Origin: a virus
IMG/VR virus record: IMGVR_UViG_3300029892_000144
Coordinates: 1 to 24,519 of that record
Direction: 5' to 3' (one strand)
DNA length: 24,519 nucleotides
Part shown: in pieces, positions 1-19,014 of the stretch
Layout of the letters: each line of letters starts with the position of its first letter
Position numbering within the stretch: the first letter of the stretch is position 1
Program-made: the position numbers and the translations under genes
The notes under the pieces: model-generated
The model's database searches: none
Told to the model about the DNA's origin: nothing
What the model saw: only the letters and a program-made list of their open reading frames with translations

Positions 1-66
1 GTCGCCCGCGGCCGGCTGGCGCAGCGCCAGGATGTGGGTGCAGTCCTCGTCGGTGGCCACCTCCAG
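1..66 (-). pseudogene. Possible host coding fragment cut by the prophage end
   Basis: Read leftward, these 66 bases give an uninterrupted GC-rich frame with an ordinary protein composition (it begins LEVATDEDCTHILAL) and no similarity to a phage family I know. It lies outside the end repeats, so it is best read as flanking chromosome whose gene was split by insertion. The same frame stays open for a short way into the prophage, so the junction cannot be placed by a stop codon. I do not recognise the protein. Confidence 0.35.
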
Positions 67-77
67 TGGGCTTGCAC

Positions 78-154
78 AAATTAAATGCGACGCGTGCACA
101 CATTCCATGCGACATGATCACATTCTGGGCGACGATAAACGTCGCATGGAATGC
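78..154. repeat. Cluster of transposase-binding-like repeats at the prophage end
   Basis: Four copies of a 13-14 base motif lie in 77 bases. Three are direct: 78-91 (AAATTAAATGCGAC), 100-113 (ACATTCCATGCGAC) and 120-133 (ACATTCTGGGCGAC), with spacings of 22 and 20 bases. One is inverted: 141-153 (GTCGCATGGAATG), the exact reverse complement of 101-113. Regular ~20-22 base spacing of related sites beside the phage terminus is the arrangement of MuA sites in Mu attL/attR, and the site between phage end and last late gene matches a Mu right end. The motif is not the Mu consensus, so a different Mu-family transposase is implied. The perfect inverted pair could also fold as a stem with a 27-base loop. 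Confidence 0.6.
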
Positions 155-156
155 GG

Positions 157-453
157 TCACATGCGCTCTATGGAGCGCTCGCAGTGACCTGGATCAAGCG
201 CGTCAAGAAGTCGGCACAGCACGCATGCCCAGCGCTTGCCTTGGCGCCGTGCGCGCCCGGCGCGGCTGCTGATTGTCTCGTCTTCGCTCCCACCAAAGGC
301 GGCGTTGACGATCTGGTCGTATGCAACGGCCAGCGTCCATGCGCGGCGTCCGTTAGGGCTGACAAGCGCAGCCAAAAGCATCCATGCGCTGGCGACGATG
401 TGCGCGATCTGGCACATCGCCCAAAGGGCTATCAACAGCAATCGGCGCTTCAT
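157..453 (-). CDS. Small membrane-anchored phage protein of unknown function
   Basis: A 98-aa protein whose ATG overlaps the stop of the preceding gene (ATGA), which decides this start over longer in-frame readings. Residues about 3-32 form a hydrophobic N-terminal membrane segment or signal anchor (MKRRLLLIALWAMCQ...). The rest is a soluble domain with the sequence DETISSRAGRARRQGKRWAC, then CVLC, a leucine-rich stretch and GHCERSIE. I recognise this SSRAGRA...GKRWACVLC...GHC pattern as a recurring small hypothetical of tailed phages, but know of no function. Three cysteines and a histidine in the tail could bind metal. It is the last gene before the prophage end repeats and is probably co-transcribed with the fibre and DGR genes. 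Confidence 0.72.
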   Translation of the reverse strand: MKRRLLLIALWAMCQIAHIVASAWMLLAALVSPNGRRAWTLAVAYDQIVNAAFGGSEDETISSRAGRARRQGKRWACVLCRLLDALDPGHCERSIERM

Positions 454-1043
454 TCGGGCCAGCCGGTTGTGATGTCGATAGCGGCAAGATCGTCTAGCGA
501 CGCCGCGGCGTCCACGTCTGCTTTGAGTGCGCGGGCGTGCATGTGTACAGCGTAGACGCGCTGCGCAAGGGCCGCTGGCAGGGCGATCACTTGCTGCGCA
601 TCGAGGGTGACGATAGTATTGTCGGCGCACACCCAATCAACAGAAAACGGAGCGCCCGCAGCCAGAGCCGCTTGCGCCGCCTGCACAGCACCCATGATGC
701 GCGTGACGCTGCGTTCATCCGCATCGAAGCGTTTGCCAAGATAGCTAAACGGCTTGACCTCTTGAAGGTCGCGCTCAGCGTTGATGCGGCGACGCATCTC
801 TTTCTTTGCCGCGTCAAGGACGGCATCGTGATCCGGATCGATCTCGATTTCGCCAATGAGCACGGGCGATGCGCACGCCGGCACCTCTTCGACGCCGCCC
901 TGTGGCGTGACCGCGATGAACACGCCGCTAGAACGGTAGTCTTCTGGCACCTCCCATGCGCTGACCTTGGCTTTGACCGGGAGAGCAGGCAGGTCGTAGC
1001 GCTGACCGCGCACGACCGCTTGACGACCATCAATTGTCAACAT
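450..1043 (-). CDS. DUF4376-type tail-region protein downstream of the DGR
   Basis: A 197-aa soluble protein. The start is fixed by a near-perfect ribosome site (AGGAGGT, five bases before ATG) lying inside the 3' end of the reverse transcriptase gene, which it overlaps by 7 bases. The N-terminal half (to about 100) is beta-rich with an acidic stretch; the C-terminal half has a helical pattern (KRFDADERSVTRIMGAVQAA, then W...DN..V.LD) that resembles the DUF4376 domain seen at the ends of phage tail-fibre and fibre-assembly proteins. By family and position it may help assemble or fold the fibre encoded upstream; that role is inferred. Its ribosome site is much stronger than those of the DGR genes before it, suggesting more product. 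Confidence 0.72.
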   Translation of the reverse strand: MLTIDGRQAVVRGQRYDLPALPVKAKVSAWEVPEDYRSSGVFIAVTPQGGVEEVPACASPVLIGEIEIDPDHDAVLDAAKKEMRRRINAERDLQEVKPFSYLGKRFDADERSVTRIMGAVQAAQAALAAGAPFSVDWVCADNTIVTLDAQQVIALPAALAQRVYAVHMHARALKADVDAAASLDDLAAIDITTGWPE

Positions 1044-2065
1044 AGGGCACCTCCTAGAGAGAATCGCGACAGGATGGACTCACTTGTGCGCCACGCGTTT
1101 GCGTGACGCATGACCGCGAGAAACGACATGACGCGCTGTCGGCACTGGCCAAGCGTCGCTTGGCCGCTTTCGTGGCGGCGGCGCAAAGCGGCAAACCGTT
1201 TTTTCCAGGCGCGCAGACAGCGCTTGCGTGGCAGGATATGCGTATGGCGGATGCGATAGCCGCAAAAATCAACGCCGCGCGCGGCAGGCCATATCCCGCT
1301 CTTTGGGTTGACGCGCAGACCAAGCGCGGCCAGCTCCAGCGCAATGCGCCCCAGCAAGCTACGGGCGGCATTCTTGCCACTAACGACGGCCACCATGTCG
1401 TCCATGTAGCGTACGTAGTAGCGCACGCCAAGGTCATCCTTGACTTTGTGATCGATGACATCGAGCAAGATATTGGCGGCCAACTGGCTGGTCAGCGCAC
1501 CAACTGGCAGACCGACGCCGCTAAAGCCATAGCCGCTATACACCGTGCGCAGCAAGGCAAGAACGCGATCATCGCGCACGACGCGCGACATCTGACGCAG
1601 CAGCACATCGTGGTCGATGCTGGCGAAGTAGCTCTTGACATCGACCTTGACGATATAAGGCCGCGACCACGTGCGCACCGCGCCGCGCAGAAACGATTGC
1701 GTGCGACGCACGGCAGCGTGCGTGCCTTTGCCGCGCCGGCAGGCGTAGCTGTCGTGGATGAAGCGGCGCTCGAACAGCGGCTCGATAATGCGCACGATGG
1801 CGTGGTGAACGATGCGATCTGAAAACGGCGGCGCGGTGATTTCGCGCCACTTCGGGTCACGCACCCAAAAACGCCGCGCAACGCCCGGACGCCACGTGCC
1901 GCGCAGCAGGTGTTCGTGGATATTGACCAGATTTGCGAATGCGTCTGCATCGAAAGCGGCCACTTCCTGCGACTGTCGCTTGCCTTTGCGCGCTTCGCGG
2001 TAGGCGGCCACGAGGTTGTCCCACGCCACGACACGCTCGAATAGGGTGGGCGAAGCCACGGGCAT
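1037..2065 (-). CDS. DGR reverse transcriptase
   Basis: A 342-aa group II intron-like reverse transcriptase of the DGR class. It copies the template RNA into cDNA with errors at adenines, and the cDNA replaces the variable repeat. Motif A is VDVKSYFASID (141-151, D142). The DGR-typical motif 4 is GLPVGALTSQ (185-194). The catalytic box is YMDD (220-223) and the thumb-side motif is FCGYRI (267-272). All catalytic aspartates are present and there is no maturase or endonuclease domain. Length is close to BPP-1 Brt. The frame is open back to 2410 through the template repeat; I chose ATG 2065 because it gives the usual length and leaves TR and spacer outside. ATG 2182, whose A is the last TR base, is the alternative (381 aa). 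Confidence 0.95.
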   Translation of the reverse strand: MPVASPTLFERVVAWDNLVAAYREARKGKRQSQEVAAFDADAFANLVNIHEHLLRGTWRPGVARRFWVRDPKWREITAPPFSDRIVHHAIVRIIEPLFERRFIHDSYACRRGKGTHAAVRRTQSFLRGAVRTWSRPYIVKVDVKSYFASIDHDVLLRQMSRVVRDDRVLALLRTVYSGYGFSGVGLPVGALTSQLAANILLDVIDHKVKDDLGVRYYVRYMDDMVAVVSGKNAARSLLGRIALELAALGLRVNPKSGIWPAARGVDFCGYRIRHTHILPRKRCLRAWKKRFAALRRRHESGQATLGQCRQRVMSFLAVMRHANAWRTSESILSRFSLGGALC

Positions 2066-2181
2066 TTTGCCCGCCGCGCCGCCCGGCTGATGTTCGCCCA
2101 CTTCTGGGCAGGAAGGCACCCCCGAAGGATTAGGCACTGTCGGCGCAGCCGTGGCCGCGCCGCTTCTGGCCCAGTCTTCCA
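2066..2181 (-). ncRNA. Spacer of the DGR template RNA
   Basis: The 116 bases between TR and the chosen RT start. In the Bordetella phage DGR the RNA just downstream of TR is needed for priming and for adenine-directed errors, and this segment has the same position and similar length. It can form short hairpins, for example GCCCA-CTTC-TGGGC at 2096-2109. It also remains open in the RT frame, so it could instead be coding if RT starts at 2182. The RNA ends are not visible in sequence. Confidence 0.5.
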
Positions 2182-2284
2182 TCGCCAGGCGGCACCCGAT
2201 GTTGGAGTTCGCGTTGGACGGAGCGTTGTTCGCGTTCAGATAGAACAACCCGGCGTTCCCGCCGTTGCCCCAGTTGCCGCCGTT
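2182..2284 (-). repeat. DGR template repeat (TR)
   Basis: A 103-bp copy of the 3' end of the fibre gene, offset by 536 bases from VR. Read in the fibre frame it is packed with AAC codons: ten asparagine codons plus one ATC. That is the usual design of a DGR template, since AAC mutated at adenines can encode many residues but no stop codon. It contains 23 adenines in the coding sense. Its first base is also the final A of the avd stop codon (TGA, 2286-2284), and its last base is the A of an in-frame ATG of the RT frame. Identity to VR stops abruptly at both ends. The GC-rich 3' part (TGCCGCCTGGCGA) is unchanged in VR and corresponds to the initiation (IMH-like) segment. Confidence 0.96.
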
Positions 2285-2703
2285 CACAGGACACCTCCCT
2301 TCGCCTTGGCCGACTCGTGCTTGATCCACGCGCCGACCATGCGACCGAGTTCGGCGAGGTGTCTGGCGCACACCTCGAGCCGATGATCGTTGATGTATTT
2401 CAGCCGCCACGCCTTGCGCACCATCGTCTTTAGCACATGCAGCTCGACGTCCAAATCAAACAGCGCACCAGCGCGGCTCTTGCGCTTCCACGCCACAGCT
2501 ACGAGCCGATGAATCTCCGTCATCTGCTCGCGGCAGCGTGCAGACAGCCCGTGGCGCTCAGCCTTCGGCCACTGCTGTGTGATCTGATGCAGATAGACGT
2601 CAAAATCCTCGAGTGCCACCATCAGACGCGCCAGCGGCTGCGGAACTTCGTACTCTTGCCCCGCGCTTCGGCGCGGGGCATCGGTCATGGAATCATGAAC
2701 CAT
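2284..2703 (-). CDS. avd: DGR accessory variability protein Avd
   Basis: A 139-aa all-helical, basic protein between VR and TR, the standard place for Avd, which forms a pentameric four-helix-bundle barrel that binds RT and template RNA. The sequence shows long amphipathic helices (PLARLMVALEDFDVYLHQIT, then a helix around EQMTEIHRLVAVAWKR, then LFDLDVELHVLKTMVRKAWR and a C-terminal helix) with the arginine and lysine content expected of nucleic acid binding. AAGGTG at the end of the fibre gene, nine bases before ATG 2703, supports this start; ATG 2688 (MTDAPRR) is an alternative. The first codons contain the post-VR hairpin, and the stop codon contributes the first base of TR. Confidence 0.9.
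   Translation of the reverse strand: MVHDSMTDAPRRSAGQEYEVPQPLARLMVALEDFDVYLHQITQQWPKAERHGLSARCREQMTEIHRLVAVAWKRKSRAGALFDLDVELHVLKTMVRKAWRLKYINDHRLEVCARHLAELGRMVGAWIKHESAKAKGGVL
2657..2680. other. GC-rich hairpin/cruciform downstream of VR
   Basis: A perfect 10-bp inverted repeat, TGCCCCGCGC-TTCG-GCGCGGGGCA on the + strand (loop CGAA in the coding sense), starts 37 bases past the 3' end of VR. DGR targets in the Bordetella phage and several relatives have a hairpin of 7-10 bp with a 4-base loop just downstream of the initiation segment that stimulates retrohoming; size, loop length and place agree. It lies within codons of the Avd N-terminus, so it may also affect translation of avd. There is no run of T beside it, so a terminator is unlikely. 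Confidence 0.75.
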
Positions 2704-2709
2704 GGATCA

Positions 2710-5298
2710 TTACACCTTCGCCAGGCGGCACCCGAGGTCGGCGTACGCGTAGGACGGAGCGTTGTACGCGTCCAGATAGAACAACCCGGCGGGCCCGCCG
2801 TCGCCCCAGTGGCCGCCGTGATATGCGATTCGGTCATCCGTGTTTGTGCTGGAATAGAAATAATCGCCGGTCGATCCGTTAGATACCGCGCCATCGACGG
2901 TGGCTGGGACGATGACCCCCGCCGACAGCAGTGTCGTATCGAAGGTCACCGGGTACCCACTGGACGTCAGCGCCGCCCGGCCCGTATTTACATAGCCGGT
3001 TGCGAAATCGGACGCGGTGGTGTTGCCGGGTGCGTTGTACTGCCAACGCCACCAGGTGCCGCCGTTACGCTTGAGGCCATCGACCATTTGCCACACATTG
3101 CCCCACAGGCCCACGATGCCGCGCCAAGTGGCCTGGGCGACATCCGCCGCATCGACGTTGGCGGCACTGGATGCGCTGACGCGCCCTTGGCCGATGAGGG
3201 CTTGCATGTCGAGCCCGCCCATTTCGATGGTGGCGAGCATCTGGATGGCGGCAAGGTCGTAGTACGACCAAAGACGGAATCCAGACACGCCGCCTGTATT
3301 GCGGGCGTAGGCTTCGGCGCGCGCCGTGGGGAAGTCCATGCTTACGCGCGGCAACACGCCGGGTACGGATTGCAGCTTGCCGCCGGAAGCGCTGGCCTGG
3401 TATTTGCCCACCCAAATCTGGTCGAGCTCTACGCCGCCCGCGCCGATAAAGGCGGGGTGCACCGAAAAACCGGCTACCGGCTGGTCAGATATCATCCAAT
3501 ACGCTTTACCAGCATAGGTGCCGCTTGGGACAGTGCCGGCCTTGAAATAAAACTTCGGAATCTTGATCATCGACTGGCCGTCGATGGTTTGCTGGATGAT
3601 TCCTGCATAAGTCGGGTGGTTATTGAAAAACGCCGCGTCGGTGGTCTTGGGCGCGAAGTTTTCGTCGATGCGGACGTAGGTACCTGCACCGCCGCCGGTG
3701 GCGGCTTGTACCAGTCCGACGATGGCCGCGAATTGTTGCTTGGTTGTGATCGTCACATCAGCCGACCACTCCGACCAGCCCAGTGTCGCGCCTTTGTGGC
3801 GCACGCGCAGCACGTATTGCGTCTGCCCGGGTTGTAGCACACCGGCAGGTACGACGTAGCTTGTCTTGGCGGTCGTCGTCTCGCCCGAGTCGTGCACAGG
3901 CGATGACCAGCTGCCGCTGGCCAGGCGAATCTGCCATTGGCTGGATTGATGGGTGTCGGCGCCGCCCGTCACCGCAAAGGGCGACGAGATGATGGTCGGC
4001 TGCCCAGGAATGTCGGTTTGACCGTTGGTCGGGCTGGTGATCGCCGGCGTGTTGACGTACGCGAATGAGGTTTTGGTGGTAAAGCTCGATGCAGACGACC
4101 AGTCCGAGACGAGTCCTGCTGCATCCTTGACGCGGGCGCGCACATAGTAGGTGGTGCCTGTCGAGAGGATGCCGGCGGGCAGCGTGTAGGACTGCGCTGC
4201 CACATCTCCGGAATCATGCAGCACCGACGCAAACGTCGATGCAGTCGAGATCTGGAATTGCGCATAGGCGAACGGGTTGCCGGCCGGCGAACTGAATCCG
4301 GCGATGGCCAGCGTCGGCGTCTCGCCAATACCGGTTGCGCCATTGGCTGGATTGGAGATGGTTGGCGCATCGGGGCGCATGGCTGGATTGACCGCTCCGC
4401 CAGCGCCCGTGGGCGAGCCCGTGGCGACGATGTGGAGCAAGTCCACCGGCTCGCCGTCGATCTCGATGCGCAGGTAGCCGTTACCGCGCATCGGCACTAG
4501 GTATTCGTCGTCACAGAAGCCTTCCGGCACGCCCGCAATCTCGCCCTGGCGGCGCAGACTCCAGATGAGCTCCGTCCAGGCTGGCGTATAAGCGTCGCGA
4601 TAATAGAGTCGCACCGCGCCGGCATTGAGGCTGCGGCGGATGATCACGGTGCGCGCAGTATTGTCGTCTCCGAGGAACATCTCTCTGGAAACCCAAGCAT
4701 CGCCGACCTGGCCGCGCACGCCGCCGCCAGAAAGCGGCACCAGCGACATGCCGGTCAGCTTGGCCGAAGACGTCCAGTTGCGCGACAGCGTCGTTGTCAG
4801 ACGCAAGCGTTGGCTGGTGAGGATTTGCGCCACGCGCACCAGGGCGACGTTTTCACCCTCGACCAGCAGATAATCCTGGCCGACCTTGAGGCCATCCGTG
4901 CTGGCCACATCGAGCGATTCGTCTCCGGCGACGCCGGAGACCACCGACACACCCTCGGTGGGCACCAGACGATAGCCGGCAGCGAAGAGTTCGAAGGCGA
5001 TGCGGCGGTTGCGGTAGAGCCAGTCGAGCCCAACGGCGCGCTGCACCGACACCGGAGAGGCCATGCCAGAGAGCGTGCCGGAGATGCCGCCGATCTGCGT
5101 GATGATGGCGTTGATGGTGGCGGCGAGGTTCGGGTTTCCTGCTCGCGCGGACGAAACCTCGGACTCAAGCGCGCTGGTGCGGTCATCGAGGGCGGAGAAG
5201 TTTTCGTCGATCTCGACATAGCGCGTGTTCCAGAGACTGGGCACGGCCTCCGGCTCGTTATTCGGAATGGGAGTGATCGAGCTGTGCGGCAGGGTCAT
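2710..5298 (-). CDS. Tail fibre/receptor-binding protein, DGR target
   Basis: An 862-aa fibre placed at the end of the tail operon; AAGGAG six bases before ATG supports the start. Residues 1-300 form an N-terminal, probably trimeric and tail-attached part with a short helical stretch near 30-75. Residues about 309-410 and 416-520 are two fibronectin type III-like repeats, sharing a Y/SYxxPAGxLxxGxTxYxxRxR pattern and ending in TTK. Residues about 538-862 are a formylglycine-generating-enzyme/C-type-lectin-like domain (GFRLW near 673, GLWGNVWQMVDG at 730-741, final LGCRLA). The conserved core holds the variable loops encoded by VR. It is expected to bind the host surface, with specificity changed by the DGR. 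FGE-like enzyme annotation would be misleading; this fold is the display scaffold. Confidence 0.93.
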   Translation of the reverse strand: MTLPHSSITPIPNNEPEAVPSLWNTRYVEIDENFSALDDRTSALESEVSSARAGNPNLAATINAIITQIGGISGTLSGMASPVSVQRAVGLDWLYRNRRIAFELFAAGYRLVPTEGVSVVSGVAGDESLDVASTDGLKVGQDYLLVEGENVALVRVAQILTSQRLRLTTTLSRNWTSSAKLTGMSLVPLSGGGVRGQVGDAWVSREMFLGDDNTARTVIIRRSLNAGAVRLYYRDAYTPAWTELIWSLRRQGEIAGVPEGFCDDEYLVPMRGNGYLRIEIDGEPVDLLHIVATGSPTGAGGAVNPAMRPDAPTISNPANGATGIGETPTLAIAGFSSPAGNPFAYAQFQISTASTFASVLHDSGDVAAQSYTLPAGILSTGTTYYVRARVKDAAGLVSDWSSASSFTTKTSFAYVNTPAITSPTNGQTDIPGQPTIISSPFAVTGGADTHQSSQWQIRLASGSWSSPVHDSGETTTAKTSYVVPAGVLQPGQTQYVLRVRHKGATLGWSEWSADVTITTKQQFAAIVGLVQAATGGGAGTYVRIDENFAPKTTDAAFFNNHPTYAGIIQQTIDGQSMIKIPKFYFKAGTVPSGTYAGKAYWMISDQPVAGFSVHPAFIGAGGVELDQIWVGKYQASASGGKLQSVPGVLPRVSMDFPTARAEAYARNTGGVSGFRLWSYYDLAAIQMLATIEMGGLDMQALIGQGRVSASSAANVDAADVAQATWRGIVGLWGNVWQMVDGLKRNGGTWWRWQYNAPGNTTASDFATGYVNTGRAALTSSGYPVTFDTTLLSAGVIVPATVDGAVSNGSTGDYFYSSTNTDDRIAYHGGHWGDGGPAGLFYLDAYNAPSYAYADLGCRLAKV
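2718..2820 (-). repeat. DGR variable repeat (VR) in the fibre gene
   Basis: This 103-bp segment encodes residues 827-861 of the fibre. It aligns without gaps to TR and differs at 2736, 2739, 2742, 2745, 2751, 2766, 2772, 2792, 2793, 2802, 2811 and 2820. Eleven of the twelve are at positions where the coding strand of TR has A; the exception is 2742 (T in TR, G in VR). Protein effects are N to H827, H830, D833, P836, D843, Y845, Y850, Y852 and D854, S to A853 and I to L855; N846 still has the template codon. The changed residues lie in the segment that forms the variable face of DGR lectin-fold proteins. Confidence 0.96.
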
Positions 5299-5310
5299 AG
5301 GTTACTCCTT

Positions 5311-5691
5311 TCAGAATCGTGGCTTGATGCGGATTTCATAGCGCTCACCGGCCTCGACGGCCTTGGGCGCGAAGGTGCGCCAGGCGATGAGTGTGCCGTC
5401 GCCGCCAATGAGGCCGACTTCGGACAGCATGCGCCCCACCATGGGGCCACCCTCTAGATAGGCGACGGCCTCCGCCTCGGTGGGCGCAGGACGGGTCAGG
5501 CTGGCCAGTGCCACGCGGTCGCGTTCGGCATACAGCGCCGTGCGCGCGGCTGGCGCTGGTTTTGGCGTGAGGTCAGGATTGTGTCCGCCGTCGCCGAAGG
5601 CGATGTGGGTTGGCACAGGGGCGGTGCGCCCGCCGGCCATCTGCTCGGCCAGGCGCTCGCGGAAGGCATCGGTCAGTACGGCTTCGCTCAT
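5311..5691 (-). CDS. Tail-collar fibre N-terminal-type protein
   Basis: A 126-aa protein between tail protein I and the fibre. It matches the short tail-collar or fibre N-terminal domain (P2 gpH N-terminus type): an opening helix (LTDAFRERLAEQMAGG), THIAFGDGG, a mid-section listing RTALYAERDRVAL, a GRMLSEVGLIG segment and a final strand ERYEIRIKPRF. In P2 this domain is fused to the distal fibre; here it stands alone, so the fibre has probably been split into an adaptor and the 862-aa receptor-binding chain. The start overlaps the stop of the I gene (ATGA). Attachment of the fibre to the baseplate is its likely role, inferred from family and position. Confidence 0.8.
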   Translation of the reverse strand: MSEAVLTDAFRERLAEQMAGGRTAPVPTHIAFGDGGHNPDLTPKPAPAARTALYAERDRVALASLTRPAPTEAEAVAYLEGGPMVGRMLSEVGLIGGDGTLIAWRTFAPKAVEAGERYEIRIKPRF

Positions 5692-6830
5692 GCGGCAATC
5701 CTCTCAACGGTGATCTCAGGCAACAGGCCAGTGCCAAGGCGCCAGTGACCGGACAGCGTCAGGCGCGCAGGCGGCGGCGGAATGCGTTTCTCACCCAGAC
5801 GGAACGCGCCGAAGCGCTGGCGGACGCGGAACGTGGCATGAGACAGGCGAAATCCGAATGGCTGCCCCATGCGGGCATGATGCAGGCGCCACGAGCCGTC
5901 GAGCCGGCGCGGTCGGTCGATCAGACGATCCGGCGGCAGCACGATGGCTTGCGGCTCTGGCGCGATGCGCTCGCGCGGCAGGTCGGCCGCCAGCACGGGC
6001 ATACGGGCGACGAGCGCGATGGGTGCGCGGCAGGCGCGCAACCGCAAGCCTGCTACCGCGCCGCGCCGCTCGCCCACGCGAAACGCGCCAAACGGCTGCG
6101 GCAGGCGCAGCGGCTCGCCGTCTCGCCCCAGGCGCCAGACGGCGTCTGGATAAGTGGACAGGGAAGCGTTGCACCATGGGTGCAGCCGGGTGGCGGGCAG
6201 CCGTACATCGAGTTGCTGCTCGGCGGCCATTGCCGCTCGAAAGTCGGCGATGAGGAGCAGCCACAGCAAAAAGATCTGATGCCGCGAGACCGGTTTCCAC
6301 TCATCGATTAGGCGGCGCGCCAGGGCAAGACCGTCAGCGTCGCGCGCATCGGCCAGATTGACGCGCGCGATGAACTGCGCCCAGTGCTGGATTTGCGGCA
6401 CGGCGGCCAGCCGCTCGATGGGGCGGATGGTGCGCGTGCCATCCAGCCGCCACGCCCCGTCCACCTTGAGCGGCATGAACGGCGCGTAGAGGGCGCGCTG
6501 CGCGGTCTGGTCGATGATCTCGACCTCGAATCCAACCTGCTTGAGCGCTTCTTTGATGGCCCACGGCGTGCCCTTTTTGCGGTGCAGCGCGATGGCGCGG
6601 GCGAGCAGCTGGCGGCGTTTGTCGGTCGCGTCGGCCAGCCGCCAGCCTTCGAGGTCGGTGACGTGCCAACCCCAGGCGAGCGTCGGCAGCAGGCGCTCAT
6701 CCACCCGGTCCACCAGATGGGTGAGCACCTTGTCCACCGGCAGCGCCTCCAGGCGCGCCGACAGGTCGGCCAGCGCCGACAGGCGCGCGTCGGTGGCGAT
6801 GACGTCCGGATACCAGCTGCGGTCAGTCAT
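5688..6830 (-). CDS. Tail protein I (P2 gpI-like) with long C-terminal extension
   Basis: A 380-aa baseplate wedge protein. The N-terminal ~180 residues match P2 gpI: LEALPVDKVLTHLVDRVDERLLPTLAWGWHV, then a helix with ALHRKKGTPWAIKEALKQVGF (about 83-103). P2 gpI is about 176 aa, so this protein is more than twice as long. The added half is arginine- and proline-rich and contains repeats: WRL at several positions (GAWRLDG, AVWRLGR, GSWRLHH, GHWRLGT) and FGAFRVGE/FGFRL/FGAFRLGE. I chose ATG 6830 (MTDRSW), which overlaps the J gene by 8 bases; the in-frame ATG at 6848 would overlap more. It precedes the collar-type protein, fitting a role in fibre attachment. Confidence 0.85.
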   Translation of the reverse strand: MTDRSWYPDVIATDARLSALADLSARLEALPVDKVLTHLVDRVDERLLPTLAWGWHVTDLEGWRLADATDKRRQLLARAIALHRKKGTPWAIKEALKQVGFEVEIIDQTAQRALYAPFMPLKVDGAWRLDGTRTIRPIERLAAVPQIQHWAQFIARVNLADARDADGLALARRLIDEWKPVSRHQIFLLWLLLIADFRAAMAAEQQLDVRLPATRLHPWCNASLSTYPDAVWRLGRDGEPLRLPQPFGAFRVGERRGAVAGLRLRACRAPIALVARMPVLAADLPRERIAPEPQAIVLPPDRLIDRPRRLDGSWRLHHARMGQPFGFRLSHATFRVRQRFGAFRLGEKRIPPPPARLTLSGHWRLGTGLLPEITVERIAA

Positions 6831-7635
6831 CTTCCGGCTCCGCTGCACTGACGGTGATACTCACGGCGTGCGTCCAGTGGTGCACGTCGGCGGCGATGTC
6901 GGCGGCGGGGTGCGCGAGCGCCACGCGCTTGACACCCGGCACGTGCAACGCGGCGATCAGCGCTGAGCGGGTCACGTCCTGCCCCAGGCGCTGCGCTTTC
7001 GTCGCGCAGAATGCGGTCACGGCGGCTTCGGCGGCGGCGCGCACGCTCCCGGCATCGGCCCAGGCGTAGGGGGTGACGGTGGCGGCCACGCTGTAGGGGA
7101 AGTCCACCGGGTCCTGCACGCTCACCTCGTCGCACAGCGGCCGCACGTCATCGGCGGAGACGGCGGCGAGCACGCGCGCCTTGATGTCGGCGGAAGGCAG
7201 GCCGGAGGCGGTGAGCGGGTGTAGCACCACGAGCCCAGGCTCGGGCGAGCGCACGGCCACATCGGTGATCGAAGCATCCGCCGTCATGGCGTGGTAGCGG
7301 TAGGCCAGGCGCGGCCCGGCCACGCTGAAATGCTCCGGTGCCAGCCGGATGCGTTCGCGCAGCCGCTCGTCGTCCTCGCCGGGCAGGCGGGACACGCCCA
7401 CGAGTTCTCCCAGGTAGTCGAGCATCGGCGCGCGGGCGAAGGCCACGAGGTTCTGCCGCGCGGCCTCGTTGATCGCGGCGCGGCACAGGGATTCGCGGTA
7501 GGCGCAGATGTCGATCAGCAGCTGCTCGGCCTGGCCCGGGTAGACGGTGCGGCCGGCGGCGGTCTCGTAGGCGCTTTTGAGCTCGGCTGCGATGGCCGCC
7601 GGATCGTCGTCGATGAGCTTGATCGGGTCGGTCAT
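6823..7635 (-). CDS. Baseplate assembly protein J
   Basis: A 270-aa protein of the P2 gpJ / T4 gp6 wedge family. It shows the N-terminal region with QAEQLLIDICAYRESLCRAAINEAARQNLVAFA, then LDYLGELVGVSRLPGEDDERLRERI (about 73-97), both typical of the family, and the C-terminal ferredoxin-like part near VKRVALAHPAADIAA. It works with W and I to build the baseplate wedges around the hub. The start overlaps the stop of W (ATGA) and its end overlaps I by 8 bases, the standard P2 order W-J-I. Length is close to the family norm (P2 J is about 300). Confidence 0.93.
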   Translation of the reverse strand: MTDPIKLIDDDPAAIAAELKSAYETAAGRTVYPGQAEQLLIDICAYRESLCRAAINEAARQNLVAFARAPMLDYLGELVGVSRLPGEDDERLRERIRLAPEHFSVAGPRLAYRYHAMTADASITDVAVRSPEPGLVVLHPLTASGLPSADIKARVLAAVSADDVRPLCDEVSVQDPVDFPYSVAATVTPYAWADAGSVRAAAEAAVTAFCATKAQRLGQDVTRSALIAALHVPGVKRVALAHPAADIAADVHHWTHAVSITVSAAEPEDD

Positions 7636-8006
7636 GGACGCACCTCGGCCAAGCCGGATAGACCATCGGCGGCGGTGAAGTGCACGCCGATGCTCAGGTG
7701 ATGCGCCTCATCCAGCGTCACGGTCACGCGTTCGACCTTGACGCGCGGCTCCCAGCGGCGGATGGCCTCGACCACCTCGCGCACCAGGTGTGGGCGGGCG
7801 CGGTCGATGGGGTGGTCGATGTAACGCCAGATGTCCGATCCGAACGCGGGGCGCAGCGGGTCAGAGCCTTTACGCGTGAGCAGAATGATGGCGATGGCCT
7901 GGCGCAGATCATCGAGCGCCTGCGCGTAGCCCTCCCCGCCCAGGGCGATCTGCCAGTGGGCGCGGCGCGGGATGGAGGCGGCAGCGGGCGCAATCATGGC
8001 AAACAT
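7632..8006 (-). CDS. Baseplate assembly protein W (gp25-like)
   Basis: A 124-aa T4 gp25 / P2 gpW-like wedge protein. Visible family features are LDDLRQAIAIILLTRKGSDPLRPAFGSDIWRYIDHP (about 31-66), which holds the conserved tail-lysozyme-like core found in P2 W, and a C-terminal strand pair ending HLSIGVHFTAADG. It joins wedge to sheath at the start of tail contraction. A second ATG at 7997 (MIAPAAAS) is possible; GAGGA lies three bases before ATG 8006 and about 12 before ATG 7997, so neither is ideally placed. A 39-base gap separates it from the PAAR gene. Confidence 0.9.
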   Translation of the reverse strand: MFAMIAPAAASIPRRAHWQIALGGEGYAQALDDLRQAIAIILLTRKGSDPLRPAFGSDIWRYIDHPIDRARPHLVREVVEAIRRWEPRVKVERVTVTLDEAHHLSIGVHFTAADGLSGLAEVRP

Positions 8007-8045
8007 GATCCTCGCGCGCGCGCGTGGCGCGAAGGCTGATCGGCT

Positions 8046-8342
8046 TCAGGCAGCACGGTCATCGGCAAACACATCAGGGCTGCCGGTGGCGGCGGACGAG
8101 CCGCAATCGACCGGATCGCCGATGCGCCCGGCGGCGCGGCCGTTGACAAATACGGTCGGGCTGCCGGCAGCGAGCGCGCCGCCGTGACAGGCCGGGCCGC
8201 AGCAGTGCGCGGCCCAGCCGTCGCCGACGCAGTGCCAACCCAGGCCGTTGACGAAGACGTCCGGGCTGCCCTCGGCATTGGCGCGGCTGGGAAAGCAGCC
8301 GTGGCCAGTGCAGATGTCGGTGTGGCGGTGCGCGGCGGGCAT
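8046..8342 (-). CDS. PAAR-domain spike tip protein
   Basis: A 98-aa protein directly after the spike gene V. It has the PAAR pattern of two GSPxVFVNG-type beta repeats (GSPDVFVNG, GSPTVFVNG, then GSPDVFADD) and repeated Cys/His pairs (TDICTGHGC, HCVGDGW, HCCGPACHGG) expected to hold one metal ion. PAAR proteins cap the gpV/VgrG trimer and make the sharp membrane-piercing cone of contractile injection machines. The start is the first ATG after V, five bases past its stop, with no clear ribosome site, so translation is probably coupled. P2 itself has no separate PAAR gene, because its V carries its own tip; here spike and tip are split. Confidence 0.88.
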   Translation of the reverse strand: MPAAHRHTDICTGHGCFPSRANAEGSPDVFVNGLGWHCVGDGWAAHCCGPACHGGALAAGSPTVFVNGRAAGRIGDPVDCGSSAATGSPDVFADDRAA

Positions 8343-8346
8343 GGCG

Positions 8347-8772
8347 TCAGTTGAGGTCGATGCGCGGCGCGCGCAGGATGATGTGCGTGGCGGAGACGAT
8401 CTCGATGTCGCCGACACAGTGGACGCTGAGCTTGTGCGTGCGCCGGTCGTAGTCGATGGTGGTGCCATCACGAAAGCGGATGTGGTGTCGATCCGGCGCG
8501 CCGGTGACGGGCGCCGGGTCGCGCTGCGAGTAGATGCAGCCCAGGCACACGCCGGTTTCGCCGCGGCGGTCGAGCAGCACGGCCACGTGCTCGCCGATGT
8601 CGGGCAGGCCGTAGTGGCGGTCGCCGCGGCTACCCATGGTGAGCACGGGCAACCACCAGGTCTCGATCTCGAGGTCTGGAATCTGGGCGCGGATGGTGTG
8701 CGCCACTTCATCCAGCGCGGTCACGAAGCCGTAGCGCAGGGTCACGCCGGCCTCGTCGTGGGTCTCGATCAT
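8347..8772 (-). CDS. Baseplate assembly protein V (spike)
   Basis: A 141-aa gpV/gp45-type spike protein. It has the N-terminal OB-fold region (RYGFVTALDEVAHTIRAQIPDLE, WWLPVL) and the conserved DIGEHVAVLLDR...GVCLGCIYSQRD centre, followed by a short beta-helix-like C-terminus (IEIVSATHIILRAPRIDL). Three copies should form the membrane-piercing needle below the hub protein D. P2 V is about 211 aa; the shorter length fits a version whose tip is supplied by the separate PAAR protein encoded next. Its start overlaps the D stop (ATGA). Confidence 0.9.
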   Translation of the reverse strand: MIETHDEAGVTLRYGFVTALDEVAHTIRAQIPDLEIETWWLPVLTMGSRGDRHYGLPDIGEHVAVLLDRRGETGVCLGCIYSQRDPAPVTGAPDRHHIRFRDGTTIDYDRRTHKLSVHCVGDIEIVSATHIILRAPRIDLN

Positions 8773-9767
8773 GGCAGCCTCCGGGTTTGCAGGTCGGTCG
8801 TGTAGCCCGCGCGGGAGATGCTGTGCCGCGCTTCGACGATGAGGTAGCGGCCATCGAGGCGCGCGAAGCCCTCCAGCCGCACTATCGAGCCGGCCACGAG
8901 CAGCGGGTCGCCGGGCAGCGAAAGCTCCAGCGCCGTCTTGTCCACGGCGTGGCGCTCGGCCTCGCCTTCGGCCTGGGCTGCGGCGTCCTCGGGCGAGCGG
9001 GCGCGGCGGTGGATGCGGCGCACGTCGGCGGGCTTCACCTCGCCGGTGGCGGCATCCTTGCCATAGACGAGCGCGCTTTGGATGTCGTGGTGCTTGACCT
9101 CCACCTTTTGCGGCACGTCGGAGATTTTGTCGCGGTAGCGCCAGGCGGTGATGAGGGCGGGCGCAAGCACGGCCACATCGTCTTGCTCGGCCAGATGATC
9201 GGCGCGCGCCACGGCCAGCGTCTTGTTGTTTTCGGTGAGCTTGATCGTGTAGCCGTATTCGGCCAGCAGCCGCCGGAGGAAGGCCCAGTCGCCCTCCTGG
9301 TATTGCGTCACGCGGTCGAGCAGCGGGTCGGGATCGATTCTCCCGGCGCGCTTGGCGCCCAGCCGCGCCGCCACCGCATCGACGATCTGGGACAGGCGCA
9401 GGTTTTCATACGCCCGGCCCAGCCGCGTGCGCGCCTGGCGCGTGATGCCGGCGGAGAGCGCGCGGATGCGCACGCTTAAGGGCGGCGCGGCGATATCGAT
9501 CTCGTCCACCTCCATCTCGCCGGTGTCGCCGAGCAGCCGGTCGCGGTAGCCGTAGCGCATCTGAAGCGTCACCCCCTTGTCCGGATACCAGTCGGCCAGC
9601 CACCGGGTGTCGCGCACGGACGGGCTGGCCAGCTCGACATCGAGGTCGTCGGCCTCGCCCGAGAGCCGGTCGGTGTAGGTCGCGCTCATCAGGTAGGGCG
9701 AGAGATCGGCGGTGACGTCGCGCCCGTTGTAGAGGAGCTCGACGGCGGGGTGGGTCAGCGACGCCAT
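8769..9767 (-). CDS. Baseplate hub protein D (late control D-like)
   Basis: A 332-aa P2 gpD / T4 gp27-type hub. Family features include the opening VELLYNGRDVTADLSPYL, an early LSGEADDLDVELASP, GYRDRLLGDTGEMEVDEIDI near 73-92, and the central helix region around LSQIVDAVAARLGA, followed by YQEGDWAFLRRLLAEYGY (about 156-173). It forms a trimeric ring joining tail tube to spike. Despite the family name it is a structural protein. The gene overlaps X by 13 bases and V by 4, the usual X-D-V order in Mu/P2 chimeras. Confidence 0.93.
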   Translation of the reverse strand: MASLTHPAVELLYNGRDVTADLSPYLMSATYTDRLSGEADDLDVELASPSVRDTRWLADWYPDKGVTLQMRYGYRDRLLGDTGEMEVDEIDIAAPPLSVRIRALSAGITRQARTRLGRAYENLRLSQIVDAVAARLGAKRAGRIDPDPLLDRVTQYQEGDWAFLRRLLAEYGYTIKLTENNKTLAVARADHLAEQDDVAVLAPALITAWRYRDKISDVPQKVEVKHHDIQSALVYGKDAATGEVKPADVRRIHRRARSPEDAAAQAEGEAERHAVDKTALELSLPGDPLLVAGSIVRLEGFARLDGRYLIVEARHSISRAGYTTDLQTRRLP

Positions 9768-9973
9768 GGCGGCAGCCTCGCGGTGGAGACGACGGCCTCG
9801 CGTCGATCGATGATGGGCACGACGACGCGCTGGCCGGAGGGCAGCGTCGGGCGCGCGGCCAGATGTGGATTAGCCGTCAGCAGGCGCGGCAGCTCGGCCA
9901 CGTCGCGGTAGTAGCGCCAGGCGATGGCGTCCCAGCGCTCGCCGTCGCGCGTGATGTGGATGAGCGCCTTCAT
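9755..9973 (-). CDS. Tail protein X (LysM-like)
   Basis: A 72-aa protein of the P2 gpX family. It has a LysM-like fold pattern: DGERWDAIAWRYYRDVAELPRL, then NPHLAARPTLPSGQRVVVP. The start ATG 9973 overlaps the stop of the preceding gene (ATGA), and the family length (P2 X is 67 aa) fits this start. Proteins of this family sit at the tail tip and may bind peptidoglycan or stabilise the hub. It stands between U and D as in P2-like tails. Confidence 0.92.
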   Translation of the reverse strand: MKALIHITRDGERWDAIAWRYYRDVAELPRLLTANPHLAARPTLPSGQRVVVPIIDRREAVVSTARLPPWRR

Positions 9974-10872
9974 GCCACCGCGCTCCGGATGGCGATGTCT
10001 GCGGCAAGGCTCGCCAGCGCCTGCCGCCCGCCCTCGATGGCGCGCAGGGCGTATTGCGCACCGCTTGCGGCGGACTGGGCGCGCCAGAGGATGTCGGCCG
10101 GCCCCGCGCCATCGAGCACGGATGCCGCCGCTTGCAGTTGCGACACGGCCGCCTGCGCGGCGCTGGCGGCATCGGCCAGACGCGCCACGCCGGAGAGTGC
10201 GGCCACTGGCAGCGCATCCGCTGCGCCGGAGATCGACGCCGCCACGCTCGGCGCCAGCGCCAGCGCAGACGCCGGCGCGACCTGCGCGAGGCTCGCGAGA
10301 CTGGCCGCCTGCCCGGCCACATCGGCCACGCGCGACGCGCCTGCCACCGCCGCCGAGACCGTCTCGGCCAGATCGCCCACGGGCGAGTCGGCGAACACCG
10401 TCGCGATGGGCGCATCGACCACATCCACGCCGTCGGCCACCGGCGCTTGCCAGCCGGGCAAGAGCACCGCCGGCGGATTGGGCTCGGCCGGATCGCCCAC
10501 GCACTCTTTGAGGGTGAGGCGCGCCTCCAGCGCCATGAGCGCCCCGGCGCCATCGGTCTGGCGCGTGGTGGTCTCGATGTCGGTGAGCACGAAGACGCCG
10601 CGATACTCGCCCGTGCCCAGCACGAAGGCCATCGGCTCGGCGGCGTCCAGCCGCTCTTTCAGCCGCGCCAGCTCCACGCCCGGGTCGCACCACTGCGCGT
10701 GCAGCAGCACGTCGATGCGCACCTCATCGGGCTTGAAGCCGGTGTGCTGAATCAGGCTCTTGCGCCCGATCAGGCCTTGCTCGGGCCACTCGGCGGCGAA
10801 CTTGGCCTCGAAGCCATCGAGCCACTGGATGACCTCCAGCTCCGTCTCGCCCAGCACGGCGTATAGACTCAT
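9970..10872 (-). CDS. Tail protein U-like, alanine-rich extended C-terminus
   Basis: A 300-aa protein whose first ~130 residues match P2 gpU: MSLYAVLGETELEVIQWLDG, then GFKPDEVRIDVLLHAQWCDP, LGTGEYRGVFVLTDIETTTRQTDGAGALMALEARLTLKE. gpU is a tail-completion/terminator or tip-proximal protein in contractile tails. P2 U is only about 159 aa. The additional ~165 residues are dominated by alanine, valine and serine with helical periodicity (repeated VADVA, LAETVSAAVAGASR, AASLASLAQVAPAS), and look like extended helices. The start overlaps the tape measure stop (ATGA). I cannot assign a role to the extension. Confidence 0.85.
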   Translation of the reverse strand: MSLYAVLGETELEVIQWLDGFEAKFAAEWPEQGLIGRKSLIQHTGFKPDEVRIDVLLHAQWCDPGVELARLKERLDAAEPMAFVLGTGEYRGVFVLTDIETTTRQTDGAGALMALEARLTLKECVGDPAEPNPPAVLLPGWQAPVADGVDVVDAPIATVFADSPVGDLAETVSAAVAGASRVADVAGQAASLASLAQVAPASALALAPSVAASISGAADALPVAALSGVARLADAASAAQAAVSQLQAAASVLDGAGPADILWRAQSAASGAQYALRAIEGGRQALASLAADIAIRSAVA

Positions 10873-13484
10873 GACATCAACCCTCCGCCGGGCGCGATGC
10901 GCCGCCGCTCGGCCTCGTAGCGGCGCATCAGGCGCTCGAACTCGGCAAAGCTCATCTGCATGGCCTGGCTCACCTGCTCGCGCACGGCGGCCGGGCTGCC
11001 GCCGCCATTGACGTGAATGACCGGCGCGAACGTGATCTGCATGGCGGCTGGCGCACCCGTGCGCGCGGCAGATGCCGTTGCGCCAGCGGCGGGTTTTGTC
11101 GCATGCAATGCGGGCAAATCGGAGGCCAGCGCGGGCTGAAATGCCGTCGTGGCAGCAATGGCCAGCCCCGCCGCCGCCTTGCCCACCGCGCCAGCCATGC
11201 CGGCGATGCCCTGCGCCGCACCCTGGCCGATCATCTGACCGAAGCCGGCGAAGACAGTGGAAGGCGAGCGGATGCCGAGCCACCCCTTGAACCGGCTCTT
11301 GATGCTCTCGCCCAGCTCTTCGATGGCCTTGCCCGCCGAGGCGAGCTTGTCTTTGATGCCCTTGATCAGCCCGGCGACGACCTCGCCGCCGATGCGCAGC
11401 ATCTCGCCAGGCAGCGAAAGCAGCTTGCCCGGCAGCGACAGGAACATCTGTACCGCGCTGGCAATGGCTTGCCCGACGCGGCGACCTAGCGCCTCTGCCG
11501 CGCCGCCCGCATCGTCCATGGGTTTGAGCAGATCACCCACGCCCGAGACGAGCCTGCCGACCCAGCCGATGACGGTCTTGAACGCGCCAATCACAGGATC
11601 GAGCAGTGGCGCTACCGGCGCGAACGCGGCGCGGAAGGCGTCGGCCACAGGCGCCAGTCCAGTGGTTATGCCGCCCCACAGACCTTTGAAGAACCCCTTG
11701 ATCGGCCCCCAGAACTTGTAGACGAGCAACGCCGCCGCCGTGAGCGCCAGCCCGATCGGATTGAGCATCACCGCGCGCCCCAGCCACAGGATGGCCTTGC
11801 CCGCCCCAAGCAAGGCCGACTTGAGCGCGCCACCCACCGCCAAGGCCGCGCCTTTTGCCTGCCCGCCAATCTGCGCCAGGTGCCAGCCCACCGCCTTCAT
11901 GGGCGCGCCGGAATTGGCGATCTCGCGCAAGCGACCGAGCAACCCCGCCGCCGCCGGCGCGGCGTTGCCCAGCAGGGGCGCGAGGCTGCGCGTCTGTATC
12001 GCCAGCGACGCGGAGATCCACGCCGCGCGCAACGCCTGGATGCGCCCGATGCTGCCCAGCACGCCGATGGACATGAGGTGATAGGCCGCGCGCGCCGCGA
12101 GGCTGCCCGCCTTGAATGCCAGCAGCGCGGCGGTGAGCTTGCCGATGGCCGACACGACGCCGGGGTTTTCTCTGGCCCACGAGGCCAGCCCCTCAACAAC
12201 CGGGCGCAGACTGGACAGCACGCCATTGAGCGGCGGCAGAAGCGCCGAGCCGATATTGATCGCCAGCTCGGAGACCGCGTTTTTCAAAAGCTGTAGATTG
12301 TTGGCCGTGGTGGCCGCCCGCGCCGCGAATTCCTTGCCCATCGACCCCTGGGCGCGCGCCGCCGCGTCGAGCTGCTGCCTGTAGACGTCCAGGTTGCCGG
12401 CCAGCGCGGCGATGTCGTCTGAGTACTCCAGGCCGAACAGGTCCACCAGCACGCCCATGCGCGCCTCCTTGGGCACGGACTCCAGCGCCTTCAGGAAGCC
12501 CAGCAGCGCGCCTTGCGCATCTTCGCCGATCGCTTGCTTGAGCGCGCCGGCCGACATGCCCATGGACGCGAGCGCCGCCTGGAACTTCTCGCCCTGCTTG
12601 TCCGCCGTCTGCAACTTGAGCAGCAGCGCGTTGATTGCCGTGCCCGCCACCTCGGGCGGCTTGCCCATGGCGATGAAGGCCGCCGACAGCGCCGACGCCT
12701 GCTCGGCGGACAGGCCGAACGCCTGCGCCACGCCGCCCACGCGCGACAGCGCCCGCACGATCTCGCTGGCCTTGGCCGGGCTCTCGTTGGAGATCTGGTT
12801 GATGGCATCGCCCAGCCGGCCAATCTCGGCGATGGGAATCTTGTAGACGTTGGCGATCTTGGCCATGGCATCGCCGGCCTCGTTGGCACCCATGTCGAAG
12901 GCCACCGCCATCTTGGCCGTCGTCTCGACAAAGGCCGGCAGGTCTTTCAAGGCCACGCCAAGCTGTCCACCGGCGGCGGCCAGGGCAGCAATCTCGGTAT
13001 GCGCCAGCGGCAGGCCGCGCCCCATGCGCATGATGGCGGCCGACAGGCCGCTCAGTTCCTCGTCCGTGCCGTCGACGACCTTCCTGACATCGGCGAACGC
13101 GGACTCGAAATCCATGGCCGCCTTGACCGGCGCCGCCATGGCCATCCCCAGCCCGGCCACGCCGACGGCCTGCCCCCAGAGCTCGCCAGCGGCGGCCTTG
13201 TGTCCGGCGATCTTCGCCTGCGTCGCCTCGAAGCGTTCGGCATGCGCCCTGGCCTGATCGATCGTCCGGCCCAGCTTCACGTAGGCATCGGACAAGCCCT
13301 CGATCGGGCGATTCTGCCGGCCCACCAGCGCCAGCTTCTCGCCCAGCTGCGCATGGCTGCGGGCGGCCTCCGCCGTGCGCGCCTTCAGGCGATCCATGTT
13401 CTGGCCGAGGGACTGCAATGCGCCATGCGCCGCCCCGGCGGCTGCCGTGACCAGAATCCCGAGCGTTACCGTTGCGCCTGCCAT
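10869..13484 (-). CDS. Tail tape measure protein
   Basis: An 871-aa TP901-type tape measure protein. Residues about 20-90 are helical; the family core follows (AMDFESAFADVRKVVDG near 123-139, TEIAALAAAGGQLG, then DMGANEAGDAMAKIANVYKIP and LGDAINQISNESPAKASEIVRALSRVGGVAQAFGLS). Membrane-like stretches lie near 440-465 and 575-640 (GLALTAAALLVYKFWGPIKGFF). The C-terminus carries GWLGIRSPSTVFAGFGQMIGQGAAQGI, a common tape measure motif. It sets tail length and is ejected before DNA. No strong ribosome site is seen before ATG 13484. A 204-base gap upstream holds an ORF on the other strand. Confidence 0.95.
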   Translation of the reverse strand: MAGATVTLGILVTAAAGAAHGALQSLGQNMDRLKARTAEAARSHAQLGEKLALVGRQNRPIEGLSDAYVKLGRTIDQARAHAERFEATQAKIAGHKAAAGELWGQAVGVAGLGMAMAAPVKAAMDFESAFADVRKVVDGTDEELSGLSAAIMRMGRGLPLAHTEIAALAAAGGQLGVALKDLPAFVETTAKMAVAFDMGANEAGDAMAKIANVYKIPIAEIGRLGDAINQISNESPAKASEIVRALSRVGGVAQAFGLSAEQASALSAAFIAMGKPPEVAGTAINALLLKLQTADKQGEKFQAALASMGMSAGALKQAIGEDAQGALLGFLKALESVPKEARMGVLVDLFGLEYSDDIAALAGNLDVYRQQLDAAARAQGSMGKEFAARAATTANNLQLLKNAVSELAINIGSALLPPLNGVLSSLRPVVEGLASWARENPGVVSAIGKLTAALLAFKAGSLAARAAYHLMSIGVLGSIGRIQALRAAWISASLAIQTRSLAPLLGNAAPAAAGLLGRLREIANSGAPMKAVGWHLAQIGGQAKGAALAVGGALKSALLGAGKAILWLGRAVMLNPIGLALTAAALLVYKFWGPIKGFFKGLWGGITTGLAPVADAFRAAFAPVAPLLDPVIGAFKTVIGWVGRLVSGVGDLLKPMDDAGGAAEALGRRVGQAIASAVQMFLSLPGKLLSLPGEMLRIGGEVVAGLIKGIKDKLASAGKAIEELGESIKSRFKGWLGIRSPSTVFAGFGQMIGQGAAQGIAGMAGAVGKAAAGLAIAATTAFQPALASDLPALHATKPAAGATASAARTGAPAAMQITFAPVIHVNGGGSPAAVREQVSQAMQMSFAEFERLMRRYEAERRRIAPGGGLMS

Positions 13485-13692: not shown

Positions 13693-13841
13693 CCGCCGCC
13701 GCGCTCGGCCCTGATCTGCTCCTGCGCCAGCTTCACCCAGCGCAGAAAATCCCCCGCCTCCAGCGCATCGATCTCCGAGGGCTGAAAGCGAAACCACCTT
13801 GCCAGCAGGGCCGCGCCCGCCCACAGGTCGTCCTCACGCAT
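13689..13841 (-). CDS. GpE-family tail protein (E' counterpart)
   Basis: A 50-aa protein too short for routine ORF lists. The sequence starts MREDDLWAGAALLARWF, then PSEIDALEAGDFLRW and a helical KLAQEQIRAER tail, the recognisable GpE/E' family pattern of P2-like phages. In those phages the product is made mainly as a frameshifted extension of the chaperone E and helps load tube protein on the tape measure. Here it overlaps the chaperone by 8 bases and lies in the +1 (equivalently -2) frame. Both independent start at ATG 13841 and fusion are possible. Its position just before the tape measure is canonical. Confidence 0.85.
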   Translation of the reverse strand: MREDDLWAGAALLARWFRFQPSEIDALEAGDFLRWVKLAQEQIRAERGGG

Positions 13842-14076
13842 CCAGCAGGCCGCGAAAGGACTCCTGGATGCGCTTGTAGTCGGCCAGGTCGATGAGCTCC
13901 ACGTCCTCCGGCACCAGGCCGGTGAGACGGGCGATCAAGGCCAGTTCCTGGTCCTCCGGCTTGTCGGCCTGGCGCTGCGCGGCCTTCAAGTCGCCAACGG
14001 TGGCGCGGCGCAGGGTGACGCTGGCCACCTTGCTGCCGTCGGGACGGGCGATGGGATATTTGAGATCGATCTTCAT
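13834..14076 (-). CDS. Tail assembly chaperone (Mu gp41 / P2 gpE-like)
   Basis: An 80-aa protein of the short phage tail assembly chaperone class: an N-terminal strand pair KIDLKYPIARPDGSKVASVTLRRATVGDLKAAQ, then ELALIARLTGLVPEDVELIDLADYKRIQESF. The TVGDL...ARLTGL.PED....DLADY pattern is typical of Mu gp41-like proteins. It should keep the tape measure soluble until the tube polymerises around it. The start ATG 14076 overlaps the DUF2513-like gene by 4 bases. The 3' end overlaps the GpE-like frame, the usual arrangement for a programmed frameshift, though I see no classic slippery heptamer. Confidence 0.88.
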   Translation of the reverse strand: MKIDLKYPIARPDGSKVASVTLRRATVGDLKAAQRQADKPEDQELALIARLTGLVPEDVELIDLADYKRIQESFRGLLDA

Positions 14077-14432
14077 GCGAGCAGCTCCTTGATGAGGGCG
14101 GCGGCGGCGGTCTTGACCGCCTCGACGCTCATGGCCAGCCCGGCATCTCGGATGCGGGCCTTGACGCGGTTCCACAGGCTGGCCTGGCGCATGGCGTCGA
14201 GCAGCTCATGTCCGGCGAAGGTCAGGCGCGTGGCGAAACACGCCGTCGGCGCGCCCAGGGCGCGCACGCAGTGCGCCTTGATGAGACCGGCCTCGGCCAG
14301 CACCTCGATGTGATAGGACACCACCGGCCAGGCGAAACCGGGCACGTCGCCCGGCGCGAGCCGGCCGTCCTGCTCCGGCACATCCTCCAGCGCCGTCAGG
14401 ATGGCGCGCACGCACTCCCAGTCCAGGCGCAT
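14073..14432 (-). CDS. DUF2513-like winged-helix protein in the tail operon
   Basis: A 119-aa protein resembling DUF2513: MRLDWECVRAILTALEDVPE at the start, VVSYHIEVLAEAGLIKAHCV in the middle and TFAGHELLDAMRQASLWNRVKARI (about 72-95) followed by a helix with VEAVKTAAAALIKELL. The order helix, YHI...EAGLI, T.AGHE.LDA..WN.VK is what I know of DUF2513, a family with winged-helix-like character and no established function. Such genes usually lie near regulatory or cargo regions, so its insertion between tube and tail chaperone is unusual. It is translationally linked: ATG 14432 lies one base after the tube stop, and its end overlaps the chaperone ATG. Confidence 0.8.
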   Translation of the reverse strand: MRLDWECVRAILTALEDVPEQDGRLAPGDVPGFAWPVVSYHIEVLAEAGLIKAHCVRALGAPTACFATRLTFAGHELLDAMRQASLWNRVKARIRDAGLAMSVEAVKTAAAALIKELLA

Positions 14433-14433
14433 G

Positions 14434-14958
14434 TCAGCCCCCGATATTGGCGCGGTAGGTGGCGAGCATATCGACACCGCCCGCCTTGTAGATGTTGGCC
14501 GCCACATCGATCTCCAGGATGTCCTGGCCTTCGGCGGAGAGCTTCAGATACCAGGCGTCGAACTCGGTCTCGACCTCGACGTTTTCGTGCTGCTTGAAGC
14601 TGCCCGCCGGGAAGGTCTTGAAGAGCACCTGCATCACGGCCACCACGGGCTTTTCCGCGTTGCGCCCGGCGGGCGTGTTCCACTCCTCCAGCGAGCCACG
14701 CACTTGCAGCTGCACGGTCTTGAAGGGGTTGGCGGCTTTCTTGAGCACGTCGGCGTAGAGCGAGGCCCACTTGATCTTGCCTTCGAGCGCCTCGACGCCG
14801 GCAAAGGCGCGGATGGTGCCGACCATGCCCAGCGCCTTGTGCTCGGCCATCTTGACCTTGACCTGCGGCAGCTGGATTTCCTCGGCGCGGCCCAGCAGGT
14901 TGGAGCCGTCCATATAGACGTTGGCGTTGGTGATGCGGTGGATCAGTACGTTAGCCAT
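14434..14958 (-). CDS. Major tail tube protein (P2 FII-like)
   Basis: A 174-aa tube protein. It begins MANVLIHRITNANVYMDGSN and continues with EIQLPQVKVKMAEHKALGMVG, IKWASLY near 63-69, VQLQVRGSLEEWN, and a C-terminal beta region VEVETEFDAWYLKLS...LEIDVAANIYKAGG. This beta-sandwich pattern and length match the P2 FII family. Hexameric rings stack into the tube through which DNA passes. An AGGAG ribosome site overlapping the sheath stop precedes ATG. It directly follows the sheath as expected. Confidence 0.94.
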   Translation of the reverse strand: MANVLIHRITNANVYMDGSNLLGRAEEIQLPQVKVKMAEHKALGMVGTIRAFAGVEALEGKIKWASLYADVLKKAANPFKTVQLQVRGSLEEWNTPAGRNAEKPVVAVMQVLFKTFPAGSFKQHENVEVETEFDAWYLKLSAEGQDILEIDVAANIYKAGGVDMLATYRANIGG

Positions 14959-14969
14959 GATCTAGCTCC

Positions 14970-16406: not shown

Positions 16407-16408
16407 GG

Positions 16409-16851: not shown

Positions 16852-16865
16852 GGCAGGGTCTCCTG

Positions 16866-17743: not shown

Positions 17744-17763
17744 CCGGCCAGCCTCCATCTAAC

Positions 17764-17781
17764 CCCGTCAAACGGGTTTTT
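17764..17781 (+). terminator. Weak + strand hairpin with T run in the 17744-17830 gap
   Basis: CCCGT-CAA-ACGGG followed by TTTTT resembles a short intrinsic terminator reading rightward, where no gene ends. It could stop antisense transcription, or be chance. Reading leftward, along the operon, the hairpin has no T run and would not terminate. I see no convincing promoter in the rest of the gap. Confidence 0.2.
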
Positions 17782-19011: not shown

Positions 19012-19014
19012 GGG

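Follow-up and report, generated by a model that had tools for sequence, protein, structure and literature searches.

Whether the reverse transcriptase (RT) gene beside the tail fibre of this phage belongs to a complete diversity-generating retroelement (DGR), and whether that element has been at work recently, are the questions raised by this locus. We analysed the whole stretch of 24,519 nucleotides (the window), a 24.5-kb virus record without the early region of the phage. The evidence leaves us almost certain that this is a Mu-like transposable phage carrying a complete, recently active DGR of the BPP-1 type.

Organization of the element

All parts lie on the - strand. The tail fibre gene (2710..5298, 862 aa), which encodes the target protein of the DGR, comes first and has the variable repeat (VR, 2715..2819) as its last codons. 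It is followed by a GC-rich hairpin (2657..2680), the accessory protein Avd (2284..2703, 139 aa), the template repeat (TR, 2179..2283), a noncoding spacer (2069..2178) and the DGR RT (1037..2068, 343 aa). Each part named in the preliminary description was located, and in the order given there, but its extent of 1037-2820 is too short: the element reaches farther upstream, to the fibre start at 5298. Downstream of the RT is a tail-fibre-associated protein with a DUF4376 domain (450..1043, - strand; PF14301, E=7e-26; phrog_2837/1807 tail fibre); it probably takes part in fibre assembly or belongs to the tip.

The RT matches RVT_1 and phrog_1423 (E=5e-122), and both of its expected motifs can be read in the protein, YMDD directly and GALTSQ within LPVGALTSQ. 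Its best match in the PDB is 8ub7 (E=1.8e-48); group II intron RTs rank lower. This entry names an RT and Avd, and we take it to be the BPP-1 DGR complex, in which the RT is bRT. The RTs of GenBank phages are all <60% identical to this one. A weak Tail_P2_I match of the RT ORF was taken as chance. Avd belongs to the bAvd family (PF22296, E=9.5e-20; phrog_3206, E=5e-28) and matches solved Avd structures weakly (Bbp7/bAvd 4dwl, E=0.005). Measured against two relatives, L004 and L083, dN/dS is 0.22-0.26 for the RT and 0.07-0.12 for Avd; judging from these sequences, both genes are intact and under purifying selection.

The start of the RT required closer attention. In the window, in L004 and L083, and in a near-identical contig, IMGVR_UViG_3300029893_000374 (L003), the RT frame is open through TR, and the longest ORF spans TR into the RT, which might point to an enzyme fused to a TR-encoded peptide, with a start in or before TR. 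We consider such a fusion quite improbable. In L006 and L010, stop codons interrupt this frame between the TR start and the RT core (in TR or spacer); relatives begin with MPKTH or MPKSY close to where MPV (MPVASP) stands here; and bRT, the solved RT, also begins at that place. The in-frame stops and the start positions of the relatives led us to reject the fusion, and we place the most likely start of the RT at about 2068, at MPVASPTLFERVVAW, not inside TR. The start codon at the MPVASP position is GTG in L004 and L083.

With this probable start, TR and the 110-nt spacer are noncoding, and the spacer is probably the 3' part of the template RNA. An alignment of nine related sequences contains conserved spacer blocks, including GGCCAGAAG. 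It also contains a stem-loop at about 2110-2090 on the - strand, with compensatory changes in several pairs, the nine sequences being few and related. A search of Rfam gave zero matches at gathering scores.

Template and variable repeats

TR (2283-2179) and VR (2819-2715) align without gaps and with 12 mismatches. The near-repeat described at the outset is therefore real, although its length is 105 bp and not 103 bp. Ten of the 12 mismatches fall at TR adenines (A>C 4, A>G 3, A>T 3), of which TR has 22 among its 105 bases (p = 7e-6), in agreement with the earlier view that the differences lie almost only at template adenines. The remaining two are at T: T78G (window 2742) and, at the 3' edge, T103A. 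Shuffling the first 5.3 kb 100 times produced no repeat of 60 nt (0/100). Most TR adenines occupy AAC codons, and in VR these become codons for D, Y, H and P, among others. We also sought a second DGR target, and the only TR-like DNA in the window and its close relatives was TR and VR.

Adenine-biased TR/VR pairs occur at 120 of 159 loci encoding a related RT, in a search that required at least 70% of mismatches to be at A. A set of 101 distinct pairs has few non-adenine changes (0.04-0.8% per site), though the contrast between adenine and non-adenine sites is inflated because this set was chosen for adenine bias. Three phages have a single T>G inside VR (T78G in the window, T39G in L003 and T90G in L083). 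We counted these non-adenine changes within VR against the DGR reading; tested over the 101 pairs, T>G was not special.

The fibre and its variable tip

The fibre matches the tail protein phrog_5302 (E=6e-43) and has an Ig-like domain (Ig_Rha78A_N, PF25788) in its middle. A C-type-lectin-like variable domain forms the C terminus, at about residues 545-862, and matches TaqVP (5vf4) by sequence (E=9e-11, 21% identity). We built an AlphaFold model of the tip from 31 relatives (pLDDT 79, pTM 0.85). Its fold matches were, in order, TaqVP (5vf4, E=3e-14), TvpA (Treponema variable protein 1) and Bordetella Mtd. Because the predicted fold matches these three proteins, the model supports the description of a lectin-fold fibre ending in VR, and VR does close the fibre ORF.

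The post-VR hairpin

The hairpin, or cruciform, at 2680-2657 lies 34 nt after VR and has a 10-bp stem and a 4-nt loop (TGCCCCGCGC-CGAA-GCGCGGGGCA). Hairpins of phage DGRs have a GC-rich stem of 7-10 bp and a GRNA loop and lie 4-34 nt after VR, and in BPP-1 the loop sequence mattered (Guo et al. 2011, PMC3240598). The hairpin here agrees with that pattern in its stem, in the size of its loop and in its distance from VR, but the loop, CGAA, lies outside the sense-strand consensus GRNA. In no other respect does the element depart so clearly from what has been published, and we counted this loop against a BPP-1-type reading. Near relatives have CGAC or CGA loops in the same place with other stem sequences, and several more distant relatives have GRNA. 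Tentatively, this clade may find its target via a hairpin with a CGAA, CGAC or CGA loop and not GRNA, a proposal that we think has the odds somewhat against it; if true, the loop-recognition rule differs between DGR lineages.

Recent activity and its alternatives

Over window positions 67-11116, L003 is 99.88% identical to the window, with 13 mismatches over 11,050 bp. Twelve of the 13 are concentrated in the 105-bp VR (p about 7e-24); TR is identical, which leaves a single mismatch for the rest of the 11 kb. The VR differences are at template adenines in 10 of 12 cases, and every one of the 12 is nonsynonymous (0 synonymous). Protein-changing differences confined to VR are the signature of recent mutagenic homing, and this comparison of genomes supplies the strongest evidence for it.

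Other relatives extend the comparison. Contig 3300025104_000097, 93.5% identical overall, has an identical TR and a different VR, in which 8 template A and one T at the edge have changed relative to TR. The prophage of Tepidicella xavieri has a TR with 4 changes and a third VR, with 8 of 11 TR/VR mismatches at A. The preliminary description had proposed looking in related genomes for variants of VR beside a constant TR, and had named a VR fixed across lineages as an observation that would speak against it. The outcome favours the element: we found the same TR with different VRs, the differences being mainly at template A, and VRs that differ between related phages. A degenerate search for the TR/VR pattern returned zero further near-identical viral contigs, and no close DNA relative was found among GenBank phages.

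Between the window and L003, both flanks of VR differ. The middle (TR positions 44-74) is the same in the two, with three substitutions in common, a point that we counted against the DGR reading. None of 8 adenine sites in the middle has changed, versus 10 of 14 in the flanks (p=0.0017, post hoc). This could reflect selection on those residues, recombination or chance.

Beyond the 99.88% block, L003 and the window are 98.4% identical over 13704-24519, and the 11.4-13.7 kb interval (the tape-measure region) is largely unmatched. The alignment has the block pattern of mosaic exchange between close phages.

Such exchange between these phages does occur, as the 99.88% block beside the 98.4% block implies. 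Together with the VR middle common to the window and L003, it would suit a decayed or dormant DGR that once worked and whose present VR differences were imported by recombination between phages. Import should, however, have brought flanking differences, and there is only the one mismatch outside VR in 11 kb. Most VR differences, moreover, fall at template adenines, and RT and Avd are intact and under purifying selection; we regard this account as very improbable. Ordinary mutation in a duplicated gene end, with strong positive selection acting on a tip that binds a receptor, would agree with the finding that all 12 VR differences from L003 are nonsynonymous. Yet it leaves the adenine bias, the constant noncoding TR and the linked RT and Avd unexplained, and its probability is vanishingly small.

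The identity of the element as a DGR is supported by sequence, structure and mutation pattern. As to how it would work, we infer the biochemical steps of homing as follows. RNA from TR and the spacer would be copied by an RT-Avd complex that misreads template adenines, and the mutated cDNA would replace VR at the 3' end of the fibre gene. A GC-rich, IMH-like stretch at the 3' end of VR (about 2735-2718, - strand) and the hairpin behind VR would guide this replacement. The outcome would be new surface residues on the C-type-lectin-like fibre tip. By analogy with BPP-1, new tips likely change which cells the phage binds, which would amount to tropism or host-range switching.

The carrier phage and its host

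The window contains Mu-type head genes, capsid and protease among them, with matches to gpT (PF10124), Mu I protein (PF10123) and Gp37, and contractile tail genes for sheath, baseplate J, tail protein I and GPD. These matches agree with the Mu-type head first proposed and, for its P2-like tail, supply contractile tail genes. Homologues of MuA and MuB, the transposase and transposition ATPase (phrog_310 and phrog_296), are present in the Tepidicella copy and absent from the truncated window.

The right end of the phage is at 66..165, where there are GTCGCATGGAATG-like repeats and inverted repeat I3; by their sequence, these end repeats resemble transposase-binding sites. Bases 1-65 of the window are host DNA. 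Three copies of the phage have a common sequence from TGGGCTTGCACAAATT inward and different host flanks outside. Because the same phage end adjoins three different host flanks, we conclude that the carrier is a transposable phage. The DGR sits at this right end, adjoining the fibre genes.

The nearest named host is Tepidicella xavieri, and the host lineage is Burkholderiales; a literature search on phages of Tepidicella found no paper. The T. xavieri prophage interrupts an EAL-domain-like gene (L170 12690-12900, L168 around 7725). At its ends is a 4-bp CCAG repeat, which is too short for a proven duplication, and other CCAG copies lie nearby. The target-site duplication of Mu is 5 bp. The host reading frame appears to be continuous across the prophage ends, with the CCAG repeat. 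Within the window, the lysozyme, terminase and portal genes (20043-20558, 21459-24519) are on the + strand, and the capsid and tail genes below 20 kb are on the opposite strand. This split is real, because the Tepidicella copy is collinear.

Comparison with known systems

The element shares with BPP-1 (mtd-avd-TR-brt) the order target-hairpin-Avd-TR-spacer-RT, a CLec target and a matching RT (8ub7, E=1.8e-48). It differs in its Avd, which is weakly similar by sequence, and in its loop, CGAA and not GRNA. BPP-1, moreover, is not known as a Mu-like phage. By both sequence and fold, the fibre C terminus is best matched by TaqVP, the variable protein of the Thermus aquaticus DGR, but identity is 21%, and the domain here is the tip of an 862-aa phage fibre (5vf4, PMC6328139).

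The prophage of Tepidicella xavieri DSM 19605 (NZ_SNYL01000014.1) and IMG/VR 2770939514_000003 are of the same lineage, collinear and 92-96% identical and have the same DGR; they differ by 4 TR changes and another VR. T. xavieri DSM 19605 is a type strain that can be grown in culture, so its prophage would allow tests of DGR activity and of what the loop requires.

In a large survey, many DGRs were reported as active, and tail proteins of phages ranked with the main targets (PMC8144416). In Bacteroides, the transposable hankyphage has an active DGR that acts on its tail fibre (PMC12135933), so DGRs on the fibres of Mu-like phages are already known and the principle itself is not new. Like the phage described here, hankyphage combines identical TRs with diverse VRs between isolates, and its activity has been detected (PMC6199706, PMC12135933). 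It differs in its host phylum, against Burkholderiales (Tepidicella) here, and the likeness of the two is one of description. To these systems the window adds one from a Mu-like phage with a Burkholderiales host, a DGR that is well supported and has been active recently, together with a clean natural comparison of two genomes that are 99.88% identical over 11 kb and differ almost only in the 105-bp target.
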